Shown: in pieces, positions 44,666 to 51,678 of the stretch
Layout of the letters: each line of letters begins with the position of its first letter
Numbering within the stretch: the stretch's first letter is position 1
From: Polyangiaceae bacterium
GTDB lineage: Bacteria; Myxococcota_A; Polyangia; Polyangiales; Polyangiaceae
Direction of reading: 5' to 3'
Assembly: GCA_009781005.1 (NCBI GenBank)
Contig: WQYX01000007.1
Coordinates: forward strand, 1 to 64,000
DNA: 64,000 bases
Notes under the pieces: generated by a model
Told to the model about the DNA's origin: nothing
The model's database searches: none
Seen by the model: only the letters and a program-made list of their open reading frames with translations
Program-made: the position numbers and the translations under genes

Positions 44666-46063
44666 TCAATCGTGCGCACAGCGAAAGCCAATTGCAAAGT
44701 AACCATTGGGCTGACCGCTGAACATTCCCGACCAGGAGCGCGCGCCGAGGGTCGTAGCATCATGGTCGTCCCACGACATGGTCCACACGAAGTTATATGT
44801 ACTGTCCTTAACCCACACGAGCATGTCGCCTGCCGCATCCGCGACGTCGTTCTTGTTGTTTCCCAAGGGGAAACGCCCTGGCGGCGGCACATACCAACTT
44901 GAATCCAGCACATCCCCCTTGGCGTTGAGCGGCGGCGTGTCTCCCGGATAGCCGTAGTTGTACCGGTGGCTGACCCGGTCGTCCGCCTTGGTAGTACTGT
45001 ACGTGGGCTGATTGCCCCACGGCCAGCTATCCACCCCATTGTTCGTGTAGATGTTCTTGATCTCTGCAGCGGACGGCAAACGTCCGCCATCCCACTGGCA
45101 GAATGCGGTCGCAATGTGCCAGCCCACGCAATTGAGCGTCTTCGGATCGAGATCAGCCTGCGTGAAGGGTCCCGGATCGTCCGGTGTTGGAGTTGTGTAA
45201 TACGTGTGACCATTGAACTGGCCAACGCCGCACGAGCGTTTCGTCCCATTCCAGTACGGCCCGAGCATCATGTTCGCGTCGTCGATGCTCGCCGGCACGA
45301 GGGTATTCCAAGACTGATTCCAGTTGGCAGCGGCAAGACCAGACACGTACGACACCACGTCGCCATTGAGACGTTCGATGAACGCTCGCATTCGCCCCGC
45401 CGTCACCAGATACTTGTCAATCTGGACCGTTGAACCGGAGATCGATCTGCGCTCACAGCAGCTCTCATGCGCTGCATCAGGGTTTCCAATGTCACCCGGA
45501 CCACACGTGTCACCACCGAGCTGCTGGGTGCAACTCCGACCTACAGCACACTTGTTGTCATAGGCACATCCGTCGGATTGGCAATCCGCATGAACATTGC
45601 ACGTTTTCCCTACGGCGCACTTCGGAGCACCTGTGGTGGTTCCTCCGCAATCAACGTCTGATTCATCACCATTCTGGACACCATCCGTGCCGGTCGCCAA
45701 TCGACACACATTCCCCGCACATACCTTACTCGCGCAGTCGGCCCCCTTTAGGCAGGCCTTTCCGTCACCGCACGGCTGTGCATGCTCGCCGCCGCAATCA
45801 ATATCCGTTTCATCGCCGTTCTTCACGCCATCGCTACTCGTTGCCGGTTGGCAGACGCCCGCAATGCAAACGCCAGTTGCGCACTCAGAGCTATCAGCGC
45901 ATCCACTTCCGGCACATCCTGCTTCGCCAGGATCACCGCAGTTGACATTCGCACCGTAGGTGCCAGTGTCGGAGGAATCCGGAGAACCTGATGAATTACC
46001 TCCCTTCCCGGATGAACACGCAGCGAATAAAAGCGATGCAAGAAGGATGTGGGCCGTACGCAT
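44666..46063 (-). CDS. FGE/SUMF1-like lipoprotein, second subfamily (3)
   Basis: A 465-aa protein from the ATG at 46063 with SD GGAGGCGTC. Lipobox LFAAC. A run of Cys-rich units (TSSDGVKNGDETDIDCGGEH) is followed by GRSCTQQLGGDTCGPGDIGNPDAAHESCCER and an FGE-like domain: QIDKYLVTAGRMRAFIERL, LNCVGWHIATAFCQWDGGRLPSAAEIKNIYTNNG, DAAGDMLVWV and the family-typical end GYFAIGFRCAHD. The QWDGGRLPS block and RCAHD end distinguish it from the 28114/30304 pair. Catalytic Cys residues of true FGE are not obvious. Confidence 0.88.
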   Translation of the reverse strand: MRTAHILLASLLFAACSSGKGGNSSGSPDSSDTGTYGANVNCGDPGEAGCAGSGCADSSECATGVCIAGVCQPATSSDGVKNGDETDIDCGGEHAQPCGDGKACLKGADCASKVCAGNVCRLATGTDGVQNGDESDVDCGGTTTGAPKCAVGKTCNVHADCQSDGCAYDNKCAVGRSCTQQLGGDTCGPGDIGNPDAAHESCCERRSISGSTVQIDKYLVTAGRMRAFIERLNGDVVSYVSGLAAANWNQSWNTLVPASIDDANMMLGPYWNGTKRSCGVGQFNGHTYYTTPTPDDPGPFTQADLDPKTLNCVGWHIATAFCQWDGGRLPSAAEIKNIYTNNGVDSWPWGNQPTYSTTKADDRVSHRYNYGYPGDTPPLNAKGDVLDSSWYVPPPGRFPLGNNKNDVADAAGDMLVWVKDSTYNFVWTMSWDDHDATTLGARSWSGMFSGQPNGYFAIGFRCAHD

Positions 46064-46258
46064 GACGCCTCCGCCGTACACTTTCAGTGCCATCATAGCA
46101 GGATTCTTAACTGGCGAGGTTGCGGAGAGATACCTGCCGAATGATTCCTACAGTTGTCGCGCTTGCGCGATACCTGAACATGCTACGGCTTCATTACGAC
46201 AAGCCAGTACAGCGTTCAACACGTTACCGCTTTATGTGAGTAACGCGTTACGCACCGT

Positions 46259-47650
46259 TCAATCGTGCGCGCAGCGGAAGCCGATGGAGAAGTAGCCATT
46301 TGGCGTACCCGGAAACATGCCCTGCCAGCTCGTTGAAACGAGATTCTTCGGGTGATCGGGGCCATCCCAAGCCTCCGTCGACGTGAAATTGTACGGATCC
46401 GTGTCGATCCACTCGAGCAAGTTACCCGCCGCGTCTGCGACTCCATTCCGGTTGTTACCCGATGCAAAACGCCCCGGCGGTGACACATACCAGGCAATGT
46501 CACGTACGTAGCCACTGTCATCGTCAATTTCAGGCCCTGGATAGTTGTAGTTGTACCCATGATTGACTCGGAAATCTTGTCCACCAGGGTTATACGTCGA
46601 TAAATCGTTCCACCCCCACGGCCAGGCGGTCGTGGAGTTGTTCGTGAAGATATTCGTGATCTCGTCGAGGGACGGCAAGCGACCGCCATCCCACTGGCAG
46701 AATGCGTTCGCAAGGTACCAGCTCACGCAGTTGAGCGCCTTCGGATCGAGATCATCCTGAGTGAAACTCGAGGTGTCCCCAAATTCCGGCGACGTGTAGT
46801 ACGTGTGCCCACCGTAGGAACCCGCCGCACACGAACGCTTCGACCAATATGGACCGAGCATCTCATTCGCATCCGCGATGCTTGCCGGCACGTATTGACT
46901 CCAATCGTGACCCCAGGTGCTTGTGCCGAGACCCGACACGTACGACACCACATTGCCATCGAGACGCTCGATGAATGCCCGCATCCGCCCCGCCGTCACC
47001 AGATATTTGTCGATCTGCGCTGTCGAGCCGTCGATTGGCGCGCGCTCGCAGCAGCTCTCATGCGCTGCCATAGGGTCTCCAATTTCCCCCTTGCCACACG
47101 TATCCCCACCAAGCTGCCGCGTGCAACTTCGGCCAACGGCACACTTGCCGTCATAAGCGCATCCGTCCGACTCACAATCTGCGTGCACATTGCACATTTT
47201 CCCGACAGCGCACCTCGGCGCACCTGTCGTAGTTCCTCCGCAATCCACATCCGATTCATCACCATCCTGGATACCGTCGGTGCCTGTCGGCGTTTGGCAG
47301 ATATTCGCTACACATAGCTTACCCGTGCAGTCGCTGTTCCCGGCACAACTCTTTCCGTCGGCACATCGCGGCGCTTGCGTCACCGTTCCACCGCAATCCA
47401 CATCCGATTCATCGCCATTCTTCACGCCATCGCGACTCGTTGGGGGTTGGCATATGTTCGCCAAGCAAACACCACTTGTGCAATCCGCCGCATCGGCGCA
47501 TTCCCCGCCAGCCCCGCACTGCGATCCGGACAGATTGCCGCATTTGATATCCCGCACCTGGGCGTCGGAAGACGCCACCGAGTTTTCTCCTCCCATCAGC
47601 GAACACGCACCCAGAAAGAGCGATGCGACAAATATGGCCATGGTTCGCAT
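46259..47650 (-). CDS. FGE/SUMF1-like lipoprotein, second subfamily (4)
   Basis: A 463-aa protein with leader MRTMAIFVASLFLGAC. It shares domain order and long identical stretches with the 44666 and 49235 paralogues: Cys-rich units, DTCGKGEIGDPMAAHESCCER, IDKYLVTAGRMRAFIERLDG, SWYLANAFCQWDGGRLPSLDEITNIFTNNS, WYVSPPGRFASGNNRNGVADAAGNLLEWI, GYFSIGFRCAHD. The three genes lie in tandem on the minus strand with 195-230 bp between them and probably have their own promoters. Confidence 0.88.
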   Translation of the reverse strand: MRTMAIFVASLFLGACSLMGGENSVASSDAQVRDIKCGNLSGSQCGAGGECADAADCTSGVCLANICQPPTSRDGVKNGDESDVDCGGTVTQAPRCADGKSCAGNSDCTGKLCVANICQTPTGTDGIQDGDESDVDCGGTTTGAPRCAVGKMCNVHADCESDGCAYDGKCAVGRSCTRQLGGDTCGKGEIGDPMAAHESCCERAPIDGSTAQIDKYLVTAGRMRAFIERLDGNVVSYVSGLGTSTWGHDWSQYVPASIADANEMLGPYWSKRSCAAGSYGGHTYYTSPEFGDTSSFTQDDLDPKALNCVSWYLANAFCQWDGGRLPSLDEITNIFTNNSTTAWPWGWNDLSTYNPGGQDFRVNHGYNYNYPGPEIDDDSGYVRDIAWYVSPPGRFASGNNRNGVADAAGNLLEWIDTDPYNFTSTEAWDGPDHPKNLVSTSWQGMFPGTPNGYFSIGFRCAHD

Positions 47651-47881
47651 AACGCCATTCCATACAATTTCGGCGCCAATAGAACTTTACGGGAATACTC
47701 CATTCGCGTTTCCACGATTAAGAGAAACGTTTCCAAACGGAGGGCACGTCGAACCTTCAAGAAGATTCACGAGCGCAAAAATCTCTCTGTCGCGTGAACG
47801 TTACGACTGCCGCGCTCACACGACAGCGATTGCTGCGTTACAAAAACACCATCAAACGCCGTACGTTATGCGCTTTTGTGC

Positions 47882-49235
47882 TCAGTCGTGCGCGCAGCGG
47901 ATGCCGATGGAGAAGTAGCCATTCGGCTCGTATCCCCAGATATCGGGAGCGTCGCTCGAAGCGTGATTATCCCAGTCCCCAGTCCATACGAACCCGCGTG
48001 GAGTGTTGTTATCCCATACGAGCAAGCCCCCCGCCGCGTCTGCGACTCCATTCCAGTTGTTACCCGGTGCGAAGCGCCCCGGCGGTGAGACGTACCAACT
48101 TACATCGAAAACGTTGCCTTCATTATTGAGGGGGAGATCACCAGGAAAGCCGTAGTTGAAGTTCCAGTTGACGTAGTCGTAACTCTCAGCCGAGCCCCAC
48201 CCAGGTGAGTTCCCCCACGGCCAGACCGACGCTCCGTTGTTCGTGTAGGCCTTCCTGATCTCGTCAGACGAGGCGAGACGCCCTCCATCCCACTGGCAAA
48301 ATGCGTTTGCCAGGTGCCAGCCGACGCAGTTGAGCGCCTTTGGATCGAGATCATCTTGCGTAAAGGCGGACGTATCCCCATAGTCCGGGGTCGTGTAATG
48401 TATGGCCACCGAACTGGCCCGTTGCGCATGAACGCTTCGATACGCCACCGTAGTTCGGTGCATCGTCCCAATACGGGCCGAGCATATCGTTCGCGTCCGA
48501 GACGTTCGCCGGTACGAGGCCGTCCCAACTTTGGTCCCACGTGTCTGCACCGAGACCGGATACGTACGACACCACGTCACCGTTGAGACGTTCGATGAAC
48601 GCTCGCATTCGCCCCGCCGTCACGAGGTACTTATCAATTTGCACTTCCGTACCGTCCAGCGGCGCGCGCGCACAACAGCTCTCATGAACCGCGCCCGGAT
48701 CTCCAATCTCACCTGCACCGCACGTGTCCCCACCAAACTGCTGGGTGCAGCTTCGACCAACGGCGCACTTCTTGTCGTAAGCGCACCCATCCGATTGGCA
48801 GTCCGCGTGAACATTACATGCCCTCCCAGCAGCACACCTTAGGGCACCTGTGGTGGTCCCTCCGCAGTCTACATCTGATTCGTCACCATTCTGGATGCCA
48901 TCGGTACCCGTCGCAACTTGACAGACATCCGACGTGCATACCTTACTCGTGCAGTCGTCACCCGTTACGCAACTCTTTCCGTCGGCACATGTCGGCGCCT
49001 GCGTGCCACCGCAATCGATGTCGGTCTCATCACCGTTCTTCACGCCATCACTACTTGTTGCGGCTTGGCACGCACCCTCCGTGCAGACACTGCTCGGGCA
49101 GTCTGCGGCCATGACGCATTTCTCGACTTTGGGCGTGCTTCCGTCGGAAGAGGAGCCATTCCCACCTCCACCCCCTGAGGATGAGCAGGCACCAAGCAGA
49201 AGCGACGCGAAGAGGAAGATAGGAATCGTACGCAT
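47882..49235 (-). pseudogene. FGE/SUMF1-like lipoprotein, second subfamily (5), frameshifted
   Basis: The ORF track splits one gene into 48351-49235 (N-terminal: MRTIPIFLFASLLLGAC leader, Cys-rich units, ESCCARAPLDG, QIDKYLVTAGRMRAF up to SCATGQFGGHT) and 47882-48580 (C-terminal: YTTPDYGDTSAFTQDDLDP to GYFSIGIRCAHD). By comparison with the two paralogues, 2 nt are missing near 48399-48402: GGHTYYTSP in the paralogue at 46259 is read GGHTLHDP here. Both halves are otherwise well preserved, so the change is recent, or a sequencing error, or programmed frameshifting. If real, the product ends after about 294 aa without most of the FGE-like domain. Confidence 0.82.
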
Positions 49236-49302: not shown

Positions 49303-49352
49303 ATAAGAAAAGATATCGTCAGTGTCTCGGATTCAAGGGCCCCGAGCTGCCA

Positions 49353-51230
49353 TTAAGAAGGGCTTTCTATGCTTATGACCGAGGCGTTGCCGTTTCCAAA
49401 CCACTCTGAATTATCGGACGCCCCGAAGCGCGCATGCGCATCTTTCTCGGCCCGGTGGCGCCGAGCACGCACCCAGCGACCTTCCGGCACTGGCTTGGTA
49501 TCGACGTCCGCGTGTGCCACCTCCCCACCGCAAGCATGCTCACGCCGCCAGCGCTGAAGAAGTACGAGCGCTGCGTTGCTATCTCGATCCCAGATGGCCC
49601 CGCACCCGGAACACGAGTGGTCCAGAGGTTCGACGGAATCGAATCTCTCTTTCGACCCGCACGCATGGCACGGTTGCAGGAAACTCCTCGTATCCAATAA
49701 TTCGATGCGTGCGGATCGACTTTTCGATGCATTCTGCAAACTTGCGCGTAGCTCGCTCACGGCCGCTGCTTGACGGTTGCGCCGCAGACCGCGCCATTCG
49801 ATACTCGCATCCTCTACTAAGTGGCGCTTGGCGACAACACGAAGATCGAAATCCTCGATAACGATAGAAACGTACTCCCGAGCGAGCTGCGCCGCAAAAA
49901 TGCGATAAAGCTCACGTCGCGCGCGGAGCGCATGGATCCGCTGCGAATCCTCCCACGACCAAAGATGGTAGTCGTGATATCGCCACGCTTCGAGTGCCTC
50001 ATAGGCCTTCTCGTCGCCGACGAAGCGCACGTTGCGCCATTGCTTTGCGAGCACAGCGAGGCGCGACGGGACGCGCCATTCCATGATGCCGACTGTCGCC
50101 TCACGCAGCCACTCGGGGATGGATGCGGCCGCCGCAAGCCAACCCGAAAGGGCGTCCCTGGCAGCCGCCAAGTTTCGGTCGCGAATCGAACGCAATTCTT
50201 CGACCTTCGCGAATGCGCCAAGAAGCGATGCGGGGAGACGCAATTCACCTGATCGACCGTCGGATCCAGCCCATGCAGCAACACGAAGCTCGTTGCCGAT
50301 CGCACGCCAGCCAATGTGGATCGCAACGGCGCTTTCGTTGCTATCGGTTCGCTGAACAGCAAGGATCTCGTCAGCGACATCCACAGTAATTTCAACAGCC
50401 CATTCATCACGCGGACCGCGACGACGAACACTGACCGTCGCACGCTTGACGATCGATCCCTCTGGCAACGGGCGATGCATGAGCATGGGCCATTGGGCCC
50501 AAATGGGATCACGACCTTCGGAGCCAATACGAAGTGACAGCGTCGTGCGCGACAATTGCCGACGTTCACCGCGCCGCATCGAATGCCACGCGCCAGAATC
50601 CACTGGTGCAACACGTAATCGTGCGTCGGAACCGAAAAGCGTCTCGCACGGAAAGCCTTTCTGAATCTGCACGCCAACGCGCCCCGCACCAACGAATCTG
50701 GAACATCGCGGGTTGTTGGGCTGCGCCCCGTCGTAGAGTGCAGCCGCGCGCGCACGATGGTCGGCGTCTTCGACAAGGAGATACGTGCCCCAGTAGACGC
50801 CGCATAAGGCACGAGCTCCCCGGCGGAGCCTCGCCGCGCGCTCGTTGATTTCGTCCATTGCGCGTTGTACTGCGTGATTCTCTCGGACTTCGCGGCGGCG
50901 CACTCGAAGGGCATCGAGAGCGCGCCGACTCACCTCCCGTGCGTCGCGCATACGCTGCCTGGCGTCGATTGGTTCCGATTTCGATTGCACAGTCATTCGA
51001 GCTTCGCGAGCAGCCGCGGCAGCTGCGTGCACCGCCTCATTGGCCGCCGCCGTTTCTTCTTCGAGTTCGCGCAATCCGCTTTCGGTGAGCAACCGACGAA
51101 GTGCATCGCGACGGGCGCACTCAATCTCAATAAGCGCATTACGATATCGGTGGGCTGCGCGCATTTGCTCTTTTACGAGCTTGCCATTCATTGTCGGGGC
51201 CAAAAGGCCATAACGATAGACGCGAATCAT
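49353..51230 (-). CDS. TnpB/Cas12-like RNA-guided effector with altered RuvC-I
   Basis: ORF of 692 aa (TTG at 51431). The conserved part begins at MIRVYRYGLLAP (ATG at 51230, about 625 aa), which I take as the likelier start; ATGs at 51356 and 51275 are alternatives. N-terminal helical part: KLVKEQMRAAHRYRNALIEIECARRD. C-terminal RuvC domain: RuvC-I reads AVAIHIGWR where TnpB/Cas12 proteins have I-D-x-G, so Asp is replaced by His (CAC codon, 50316-50318). RuvC-II Glu is kept (IVIEDFDL). A CxxC..CxxC zinc ribbon (PCHACG, CSGCG) and RuvC-III Asp (DRDSNAALVLL) are kept. Length and the GWR motif resemble Cas12m/type V-U1 more than typical 400-aa TnpB. No CRISPR array, tnpA or adaptation gene is near. 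Likely nuclease-impaired; DNA-binding role inferred. Confidence 0.8.
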   Translation of the reverse strand: MIRVYRYGLLAPTMNGKLVKEQMRAAHRYRNALIEIECARRDALRRLLTESGLRELEEETAAANEAVHAAAAAAREARMTVQSKSEPIDARQRMRDAREVSRRALDALRVRRREVRENHAVQRAMDEINERAARLRRGARALCGVYWGTYLLVEDADHRARAAALYDGAQPNNPRCSRFVGAGRVGVQIQKGFPCETLFGSDARLRVAPVDSGAWHSMRRGERRQLSRTTLSLRIGSEGRDPIWAQWPMLMHRPLPEGSIVKRATVSVRRRGPRDEWAVEITVDVADEILAVQRTDSNESAVAIHIGWRAIGNELRVAAWAGSDGRSGELRLPASLLGAFAKVEELRSIRDRNLAAARDALSGWLAAAASIPEWLREATVGIMEWRVPSRLAVLAKQWRNVRFVGDEKAYEALEAWRYHDYHLWSWEDSQRIHALRARRELYRIFAAQLAREYVSIVIEDFDLRVVAKRHLVEDASIEWRGLRRNRQAAAVSELRASLQNASKSRSARIELLDTRSFLQPCHACGSKERFDSVEPLDHSCSGCGAIWDRDSNAALVLLQRWRREHACGGEVAHADVDTKPVPEGRWVRARRHRAEKDAHARFGASDNSEWFGNGNASVISIESPS

Positions 51231-51479
51231 TTCGGATAACGTCCCGGCATATAAAGCCAAGAGCATGCCAAGCATGGCCGGTTCATCGATGATCCACGAT
51301 AATATCCACGGTATATTGCCGCGCAAATCGCATACCGGCGGTGGCGCGACTACCATGTCGACGCGATAGCGCGACAGGCGGTGTCGCGCACGAACAGCAA
51401 TGCGTATCCTCAGTGAGAACGCGGCGCACAACCATGAATGAGAGTGCGCCGCTACGTCCGCCGACGCGGAGCGAATTCA

Positions 51480-51676
51480 GGGACAGGCCCTAACACGACT
51501 GCCGGAACTTCGTTCCGGGCTACGCGGTTCCGCTTCGCGGAAACCCGTCGTGTTCCCTTGTCTCAAGGGGGCGCGGCGCCCCCTCTTGCCCGCTTTCGCG
51601 GGCAATTCACCCCTCCGAAAAGCCGCTCCCGCGGCTTTGCTTGCACTCCTGCCGGAATACTTCCGGCAGGAGTGCT
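51480..51676. repeat. Chain of six hairpins upstream of the Cas12-like gene
   Basis: In plus-strand order: an outer stem AACACGAC (51492-51499) / GTCGTGTT (51547-51554) encloses CCGGAAC-TTC-GTTCCGG (51502-51518) and GGTTCCGC-TTC-GCGGAAACC (51526-51545). Then follow CAAGGGGGC../..GCCCCCTCTTG (51564-51588), GCCCGC-TTTC-GCGGGC (51588-51603), AAAGCCGC-TCCC-GCGGCTTT (51619-51638) and a perfect 15-bp stem GCACTCCTGCCGGAA-TAC (51643-51675). The chain lies between the stop of the PEGA gene (51679) and the effector start, all on the minus strand. Very high structure with almost no unpaired DNA. Confidence 0.85.
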
Positions 51677-51678
51677 AA

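Follow-up and report, generated by a model that had tools for sequence, protein, structure and literature searches.

In the window, the 64,000-nt stretch of Polyangiaceae DNA analysed here, a chain of compact hairpins lies between two minus-strand genes, one encoding a PEGA-domain protein and the other a Cas12-type effector (49353-51230, minus strand) that lies outside the element described below. Judged by its sequence, the effector is a Cas12m: phmmer matched it to the PDB Cas12m with E = 5.8e-80, and it shows the Pfam domain Cas12f1-like_TNB. Its start codon was placed by alignment with the homologous loci L082 and L083. The gene is single-copy in this genome (G000), with homologues in a sister species of the same genus (G009, 66-67%) and in G032 (41%). 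The RuvC-I motif is IHIGWR in this genome, whereas the G009 protein has IDIGWR and the G032 protein LNLGWA; the replacement of the RuvC-I aspartate by histidine found here is already known among Cas12m proteins (PMC11013384). In the G009 homologue, the zinc-finger region has diverged. Downstream of the Cas12m gene there are tandem paralogous lipoprotein-like genes (44666-49235, minus strand), which are also found beside the G009 homologue. Upstream of the gene, GTGGATCATCGAT, with another GTGGAT(CAT) close to it, occurs both here (51300-51330) and in the sister species (L082, approximately 210-255), and this shared sequence is possibly a promoter or operator.

The first-pass annotation had described the chain, at 51480-51676, as an outer stem enclosing two hairpins followed by four more, and RNA folding of the plus strand reproduced this layout, including the last hairpin with its perfect 15-bp stem (51643-51657/51661-51675). 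The minimum free energy was -115.1 kcal/mol, whereas 200 shuffles that preserved dinucleotides gave -75.1 +/- 4.5 (z = -8.8), none of them folding equally well. The minus strand, which is the strand that read-through from the upstream gene would give, also folds strongly (z = -7.0). The chain may plausibly be transcribed by such read-through, and the resulting RNA would be at most a generic 3'-end or 5'-leader structure. Rfam gave no matches above the gathering score in the window.

Although the hairpins are where they had been placed, the true repeat unit is 51490-51678, with borders set by aligning 21 copies together with 45-bp flanks. These borders are sharp and common to the copies, with the form [YTAR] CAC..CTGCCGGAA ... 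TTCCGGCAG..GTG [YTAR], and the flanks are unrelated between copies. The outer stem is present in the fold, but its outermost part, formed by 51480-51487 and 51557-51564, does not belong to the conserved element, since 51480-51489 is outside the unit and absent from the other copies. One arm of it belongs to the end of another repeat (family C, ...CGAATTCAGGGACAGGCC, 51455-51489, plus strand), which matches a repeat end in the flank of L015 and abuts the element at the same CTAA.

The element, named family A, is read on the plus strand. It starts with a 4-bp direct repeat, CTAA (51490-51493), where the copies begin to be alike, and ends with the same 4-mer (51675-51678), as seen by copy alignment and 4-mer comparison; these would be the target-site duplication. 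Between them is a multi-hairpin, non-autonomous body of 181 bp (51494-51674). The inverted ends, CACNNCTGCCGGAA, are located inside matching 4-bp direct repeats, mostly YTAR. On the left, the terminal inverted repeat CACGACTGCCGGAA (51494-51507) pairs with 51661-51677 (pair I3, 17 nt, 82% complementary), and this pairing is consistent in copies of three species. The body begins with a branched stem-loop (51492-51554; helices 1-3), in which the stem 51492-51499/51547-51554 surrounds the hairpins 51502-51518 and 51526-51545, and helices 1 and 2 show compensatory changes. The fold continues with an 8-bp hairpin GGGGGCGC/GCGCCCCC (51566-51584; helix 4, 98.5% of cells paired), another 8-bp hairpin TTGCCCGC/GCGGGCAA (51586-51605; helix 5, two pairs changed on both sides), an unpaired motif ATTCACCCC (51605-51613) kept in nearly all copies of the three species, and a hairpin AAAGCCGC/GCGGCTTT (51619-51638; helix 6, five pairs changed on both sides). 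The perfect 15-bp stem forms the right-end palindrome (51643-51675; inverted pair I2, helix 7), which includes the right terminal inverted repeat and is also found alone at other sites of the genome.

The first-pass annotation had left room for clustered palindromic repeats belonging to the host genome, and this was right in kind. A whole-genome search of G000 (4.77 Mb) found 20 copies of the chain of at least 151 bp, with 92-100% identity and at unrelated sites, as well as a number of incomplete copies and further end palindromes. The first-pass annotation had stated that a chain widespread away from the effector would refute its reading, and this was the outcome. Among 57 other relatives searched, the clear carriers are the sister species G009, with at least 13 long copies (81-94% identity), and G034, from another genus of the family, with four long copies that are 70-72% identical and preserve the structure; G030 and G019 contain fragments of the chain. 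With a 181-bp body (below the approximately 600 bp of MITEs), no conserved ORF and 20 long dispersed copies, the element has the size and copy number of a MITE.

Concerning the insertion sites, equal 4-mers are present on both sides in 12 of 19 full copies (5.2 expected; permutation P = 5e-5) and in five of nine solo palindromes (permutation P = 0.005), the other seven full copies being without them. The matching repeats are CTAA, TTAA, CTAG or CGAA; pairs such as CGAA/CGAA, CTAG/CTAG and TTAG/TTAG are included, and this agreement of the two sides indicates direct duplication and not inverted ends. The solo 31-bp end palindromes may derive from full elements in which a deletion joined the two direct CACNNCTGCCGGAA copies. 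In several cases the first base of the insertion falls exactly at the stop codon of a gene, which supplies TAA or TAG; one of them lies at the end of a gene that we take to be gyrB from its C-terminal sequence. In G009, the loci that correspond to the gyrB and L014 insertions are without the element, and these orthologues show its absence and not the join; no clean, exact pre-insertion site for family A was found in the DNA searched.

The mover of these copies was looked for through the ends of the element. The end pattern TARCACTACTGCCGG is present in seven of 108 genomes of the family, with 0-2 matches per genome for the reversed control. In G002, this pattern opens an insertion sequence whose ORF matches Pfam DDE_5 (3.3e-12) and the NCBIfam IS701 transposase (1.8e-15), the latter below the model cut-off, as the contig breaks off 112 codons into the frame. 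In G083, the transposase-side end of an IS701-type element is CTAG-CACTACTGCCGAGAAC, and the other side, on an overlapping contig, is CTAG-CACTACTGCCGGAAACTC, with 17 nt identical to the end of the G034 MITE. The IS701 insertion sequences of both genomes have YTAR-CACTACTGCCG ends, as in the MITE, and the left terminal inverted repeat of the element has the same consensus end. The G002 and G083 copies are truncated where their contigs stop, so that no single contig showed an intact copy with its two ends. Furthermore, G030 contains four IS701 copies with ends CACTACTCGGTCAC, preceded by TTAA, CTAG, TTAG and CTAA. For IS701, direct repeats of 4 bp and a conserved end ---YACT-Y have been described (PMC2266710), features that agree with the YTAR repeats and ends of the element. 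The IS701-type element of G083 (L191, L156; overlapping contig ends) apparently carries a gene for a 23S-rRNA-IVP-like four-helix-bundle protein as a passenger. The 23S-IVP four-helix proteins were considered as partners of the element and rejected, being absent from G000, G009 and G002.

Regarding these data, it is highly likely that the chain represents a single copy of a dispersed MITE, non-autonomous and with a 181-bp body, moved in trans by an IS701-family transposase, and that the Cas12m neighbourhood is incidental. This reading rests on the observed repetition, the defined and inverted ends, the correlated 4-bp repeats, the conserved structure, the two orthologous absences and the IS701 ends in relatives, from which we infer the IS701 transposase as the mover and its later loss from G000. 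In fact, a search at E<=0.01 gave no match to the IS701 (DDE_5) transposase in either G000 or G009; the mover is therefore deduced from the relatives and was probably lost. In G000, the interval of contig 1 bounded by end motifs at 80361 and 82740, considered as a possible autonomous partner, contained only chromosomal-looking ORFs. A DDE transposase of the IS701 family would have recognised terminal inverted repeats of the CACTACTGCCGG type and, acting in trans, transferred the short element into a YTAR target opened by a staggered cut of 4 bp, so that CTAA was duplicated; in this locus the insertion would have occurred at CTAA in the gap between the PEGA-domain protein gene and the Cas12m gene. 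No literature linking IS701 to bacterial MITEs of this form was found. The element is thus real but of an ordinary kind, and it represents a new MITE family of the IS701 type whose body is unusually hairpin-rich and structure-conserving.

This family resembles the IS701 insertion sequences in the 4-bp YTAR direct repeats, the ends beginning with CACTACTGCCG and the 13-17 nt of end common to the IS701 elements of relatives, whereas its body has no transposase, is unrelated to the observed insertion sequences beyond the end and consists of hairpins conserved with compensatory changes. The bacterial MITEs QMITE2 and MITEAba12 are likewise short, with inverted ends, direct repeats and a predicted stable folded transcript (PMC10969869), but the element described here is GC-rich instead of AT-rich, forms six separate hairpins and not one long fold, and its 31-bp end palindrome also occurs alone with direct repeats.

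Other movers have to be weighed against an IS701 transposase. The hairpin-rich body and the single end palindromes beside composite copies recall the REP, BIME and REPIN sequences, extragenic palindromes that also occur beside stop codons, and G000 has one Y1 transposase, presumably IS200-like, so that mobilisation through single-stranded hairpins by a HUH (Y1, RAYT-like) transposase was considered. We regard it as quite improbable: no Y1 transposase was found at E<=0.001 in the carrier G009 despite its at least 13 long copies, for which IS200/RAYT mobilisation was rejected, and the ends match IS701 elements. IS200/IS605-type transposition is not known to make inverted ends with correlated 4-bp direct repeats on both sides, which is the arrangement seen here. 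Moreover, REP-type palindromes are GTAG- or CGTC-tagged (PMC3733652), whereas the element has YTAR on both sides and no such tag at one palindrome foot. The mover could also be a DDE transposase of another family with the same target, such as IS5, whose duplications are also YTAR (PMC10359306), and DDE_Tnp_1 genes are present in G000, G009 and G034; however, it was IS701-type elements that carried the matching ends, and this origin seems very unlikely.

A different question is whether the structure is maintained by selection after the MITE was formed. When 19 copies of the three species are compared, pairing holds in 97.8% of cells, and 13 of the 56 pairs are changed on both sides, with 53 such cells against 16 in shuffles, which leave relatedness in. 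Sliding the partners abolished the covariation signal. These compensatory changes in the body are not required by the IS701 mechanism, and the paired stems, the least ordinary aspect of the element, could be kept by selection on folding or by palindrome repair. The two-sided changes, the conserved unpaired motif and the position of copies at stop codons would fit a multi-hairpin RNA under selection across Polyangiaceae genera, the IS701-moved copies at stop codons acting as portable 3'-end elements, for example transcription terminators or mRNA 3'-end stabilisers. Nevertheless, template-switch repair can keep palindromes paired without selection, and the YTAR target accounts for the copies at stop codons with no need of it. 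Hence, such a selected function, which is compatible with the IS701-type MITE origin, is given a low probability.

The first-pass annotation had also raised the possibility of a structured, guide-like RNA. The chain is structured and adjoins a Cas12-type gene, like the Cas12m crRNA or the TnpB reRNA; it folds strongly, shares its transcription direction with Cas12m and precedes the inferred start codon of that gene by approximately 260 bp. However, about 20 copies lie elsewhere without the effector, which is single-copy, so the chain is not specific to it, and it does not occur upstream of either homologue in the other genomes, within the 298 and 467 nt covered. In addition, Cas12m works with a single crRNA (PMC11013384), and the CRISPR array (G032) or solo repeat (G000 and G009) sits 3' of the gene, unlike the chain, which is 5'. 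As one of about 20 dispersed copies of a mobile repeat, the chain is therefore not taken as the Cas12m guide RNA, and a role for it as a guide-like or accessory RNA appears extremely improbable.

A likelier place for the Cas12m guide is the 3' side of the gene. In G032, a CRISPR array with seven 33-36-nt repeats (about GCAACAAGAGCTGCTCAGTGCTCTAAGAACTGAGAC) lies directly 3' of the Cas12m homologue (L083, 2270-2717); in the window, the repeat scan and TRF detected no CRISPR array. Just 3' of the Cas12m gene there is instead a 40-mer (49315-49354, minus strand) that is identical at 39 of 40 positions in G009 (L104, 2258-2297), where the gene is approximately 72% identical. This CRISPR-repeat-like sequence occurs once per genome, being unique in G000 and in G009, and aligns with the G032 repeats (23/36 ungapped for G009), including, by eye, both stems. 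The apparent solo repeat is thus a candidate Cas12m guide RNA, likelier than the chain. The first 9 nt of the putative spacer that follows it (ACTGACGAT) are conserved, so it is possible that Cas12m works with a fixed, perhaps regulatory, guide. No target of this putative spacer was found in 2.06 Mb of G000 or, as an exact 18-mer, in IMG/VR.

These results remove a false lead: what could be read as a hairpin array serving as Cas12m guide RNA is replaced by a mobile element with defined limits, together with the partner that probably moved it. More generally, the element illustrates how repeats at YTAR or stop-codon sites can bring large structured RNAs next to defence genes, where they resemble guide RNAs when genomes are scanned.

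Finally, several other short repeat families were observed in G000, for example in the flanks of L015, L018, L021, L013 and L017. Family B (GAGCGTGTTCGACAGCC...) has CTAA/CTGA duplications, and it is accompanied by families C (GGCCTGTCCCTGAATTC...), D (GACCGCTTTCGATTTGACGCGA..., with 79 ends counted over 2.06 Mb) and E (CCCGGATAATTCATGACG...). These families often abut each other at YTAR sites, and in L015 a family C repeat is inserted into family B at CTAG, with uninterrupted copies of B in L018 and L021.
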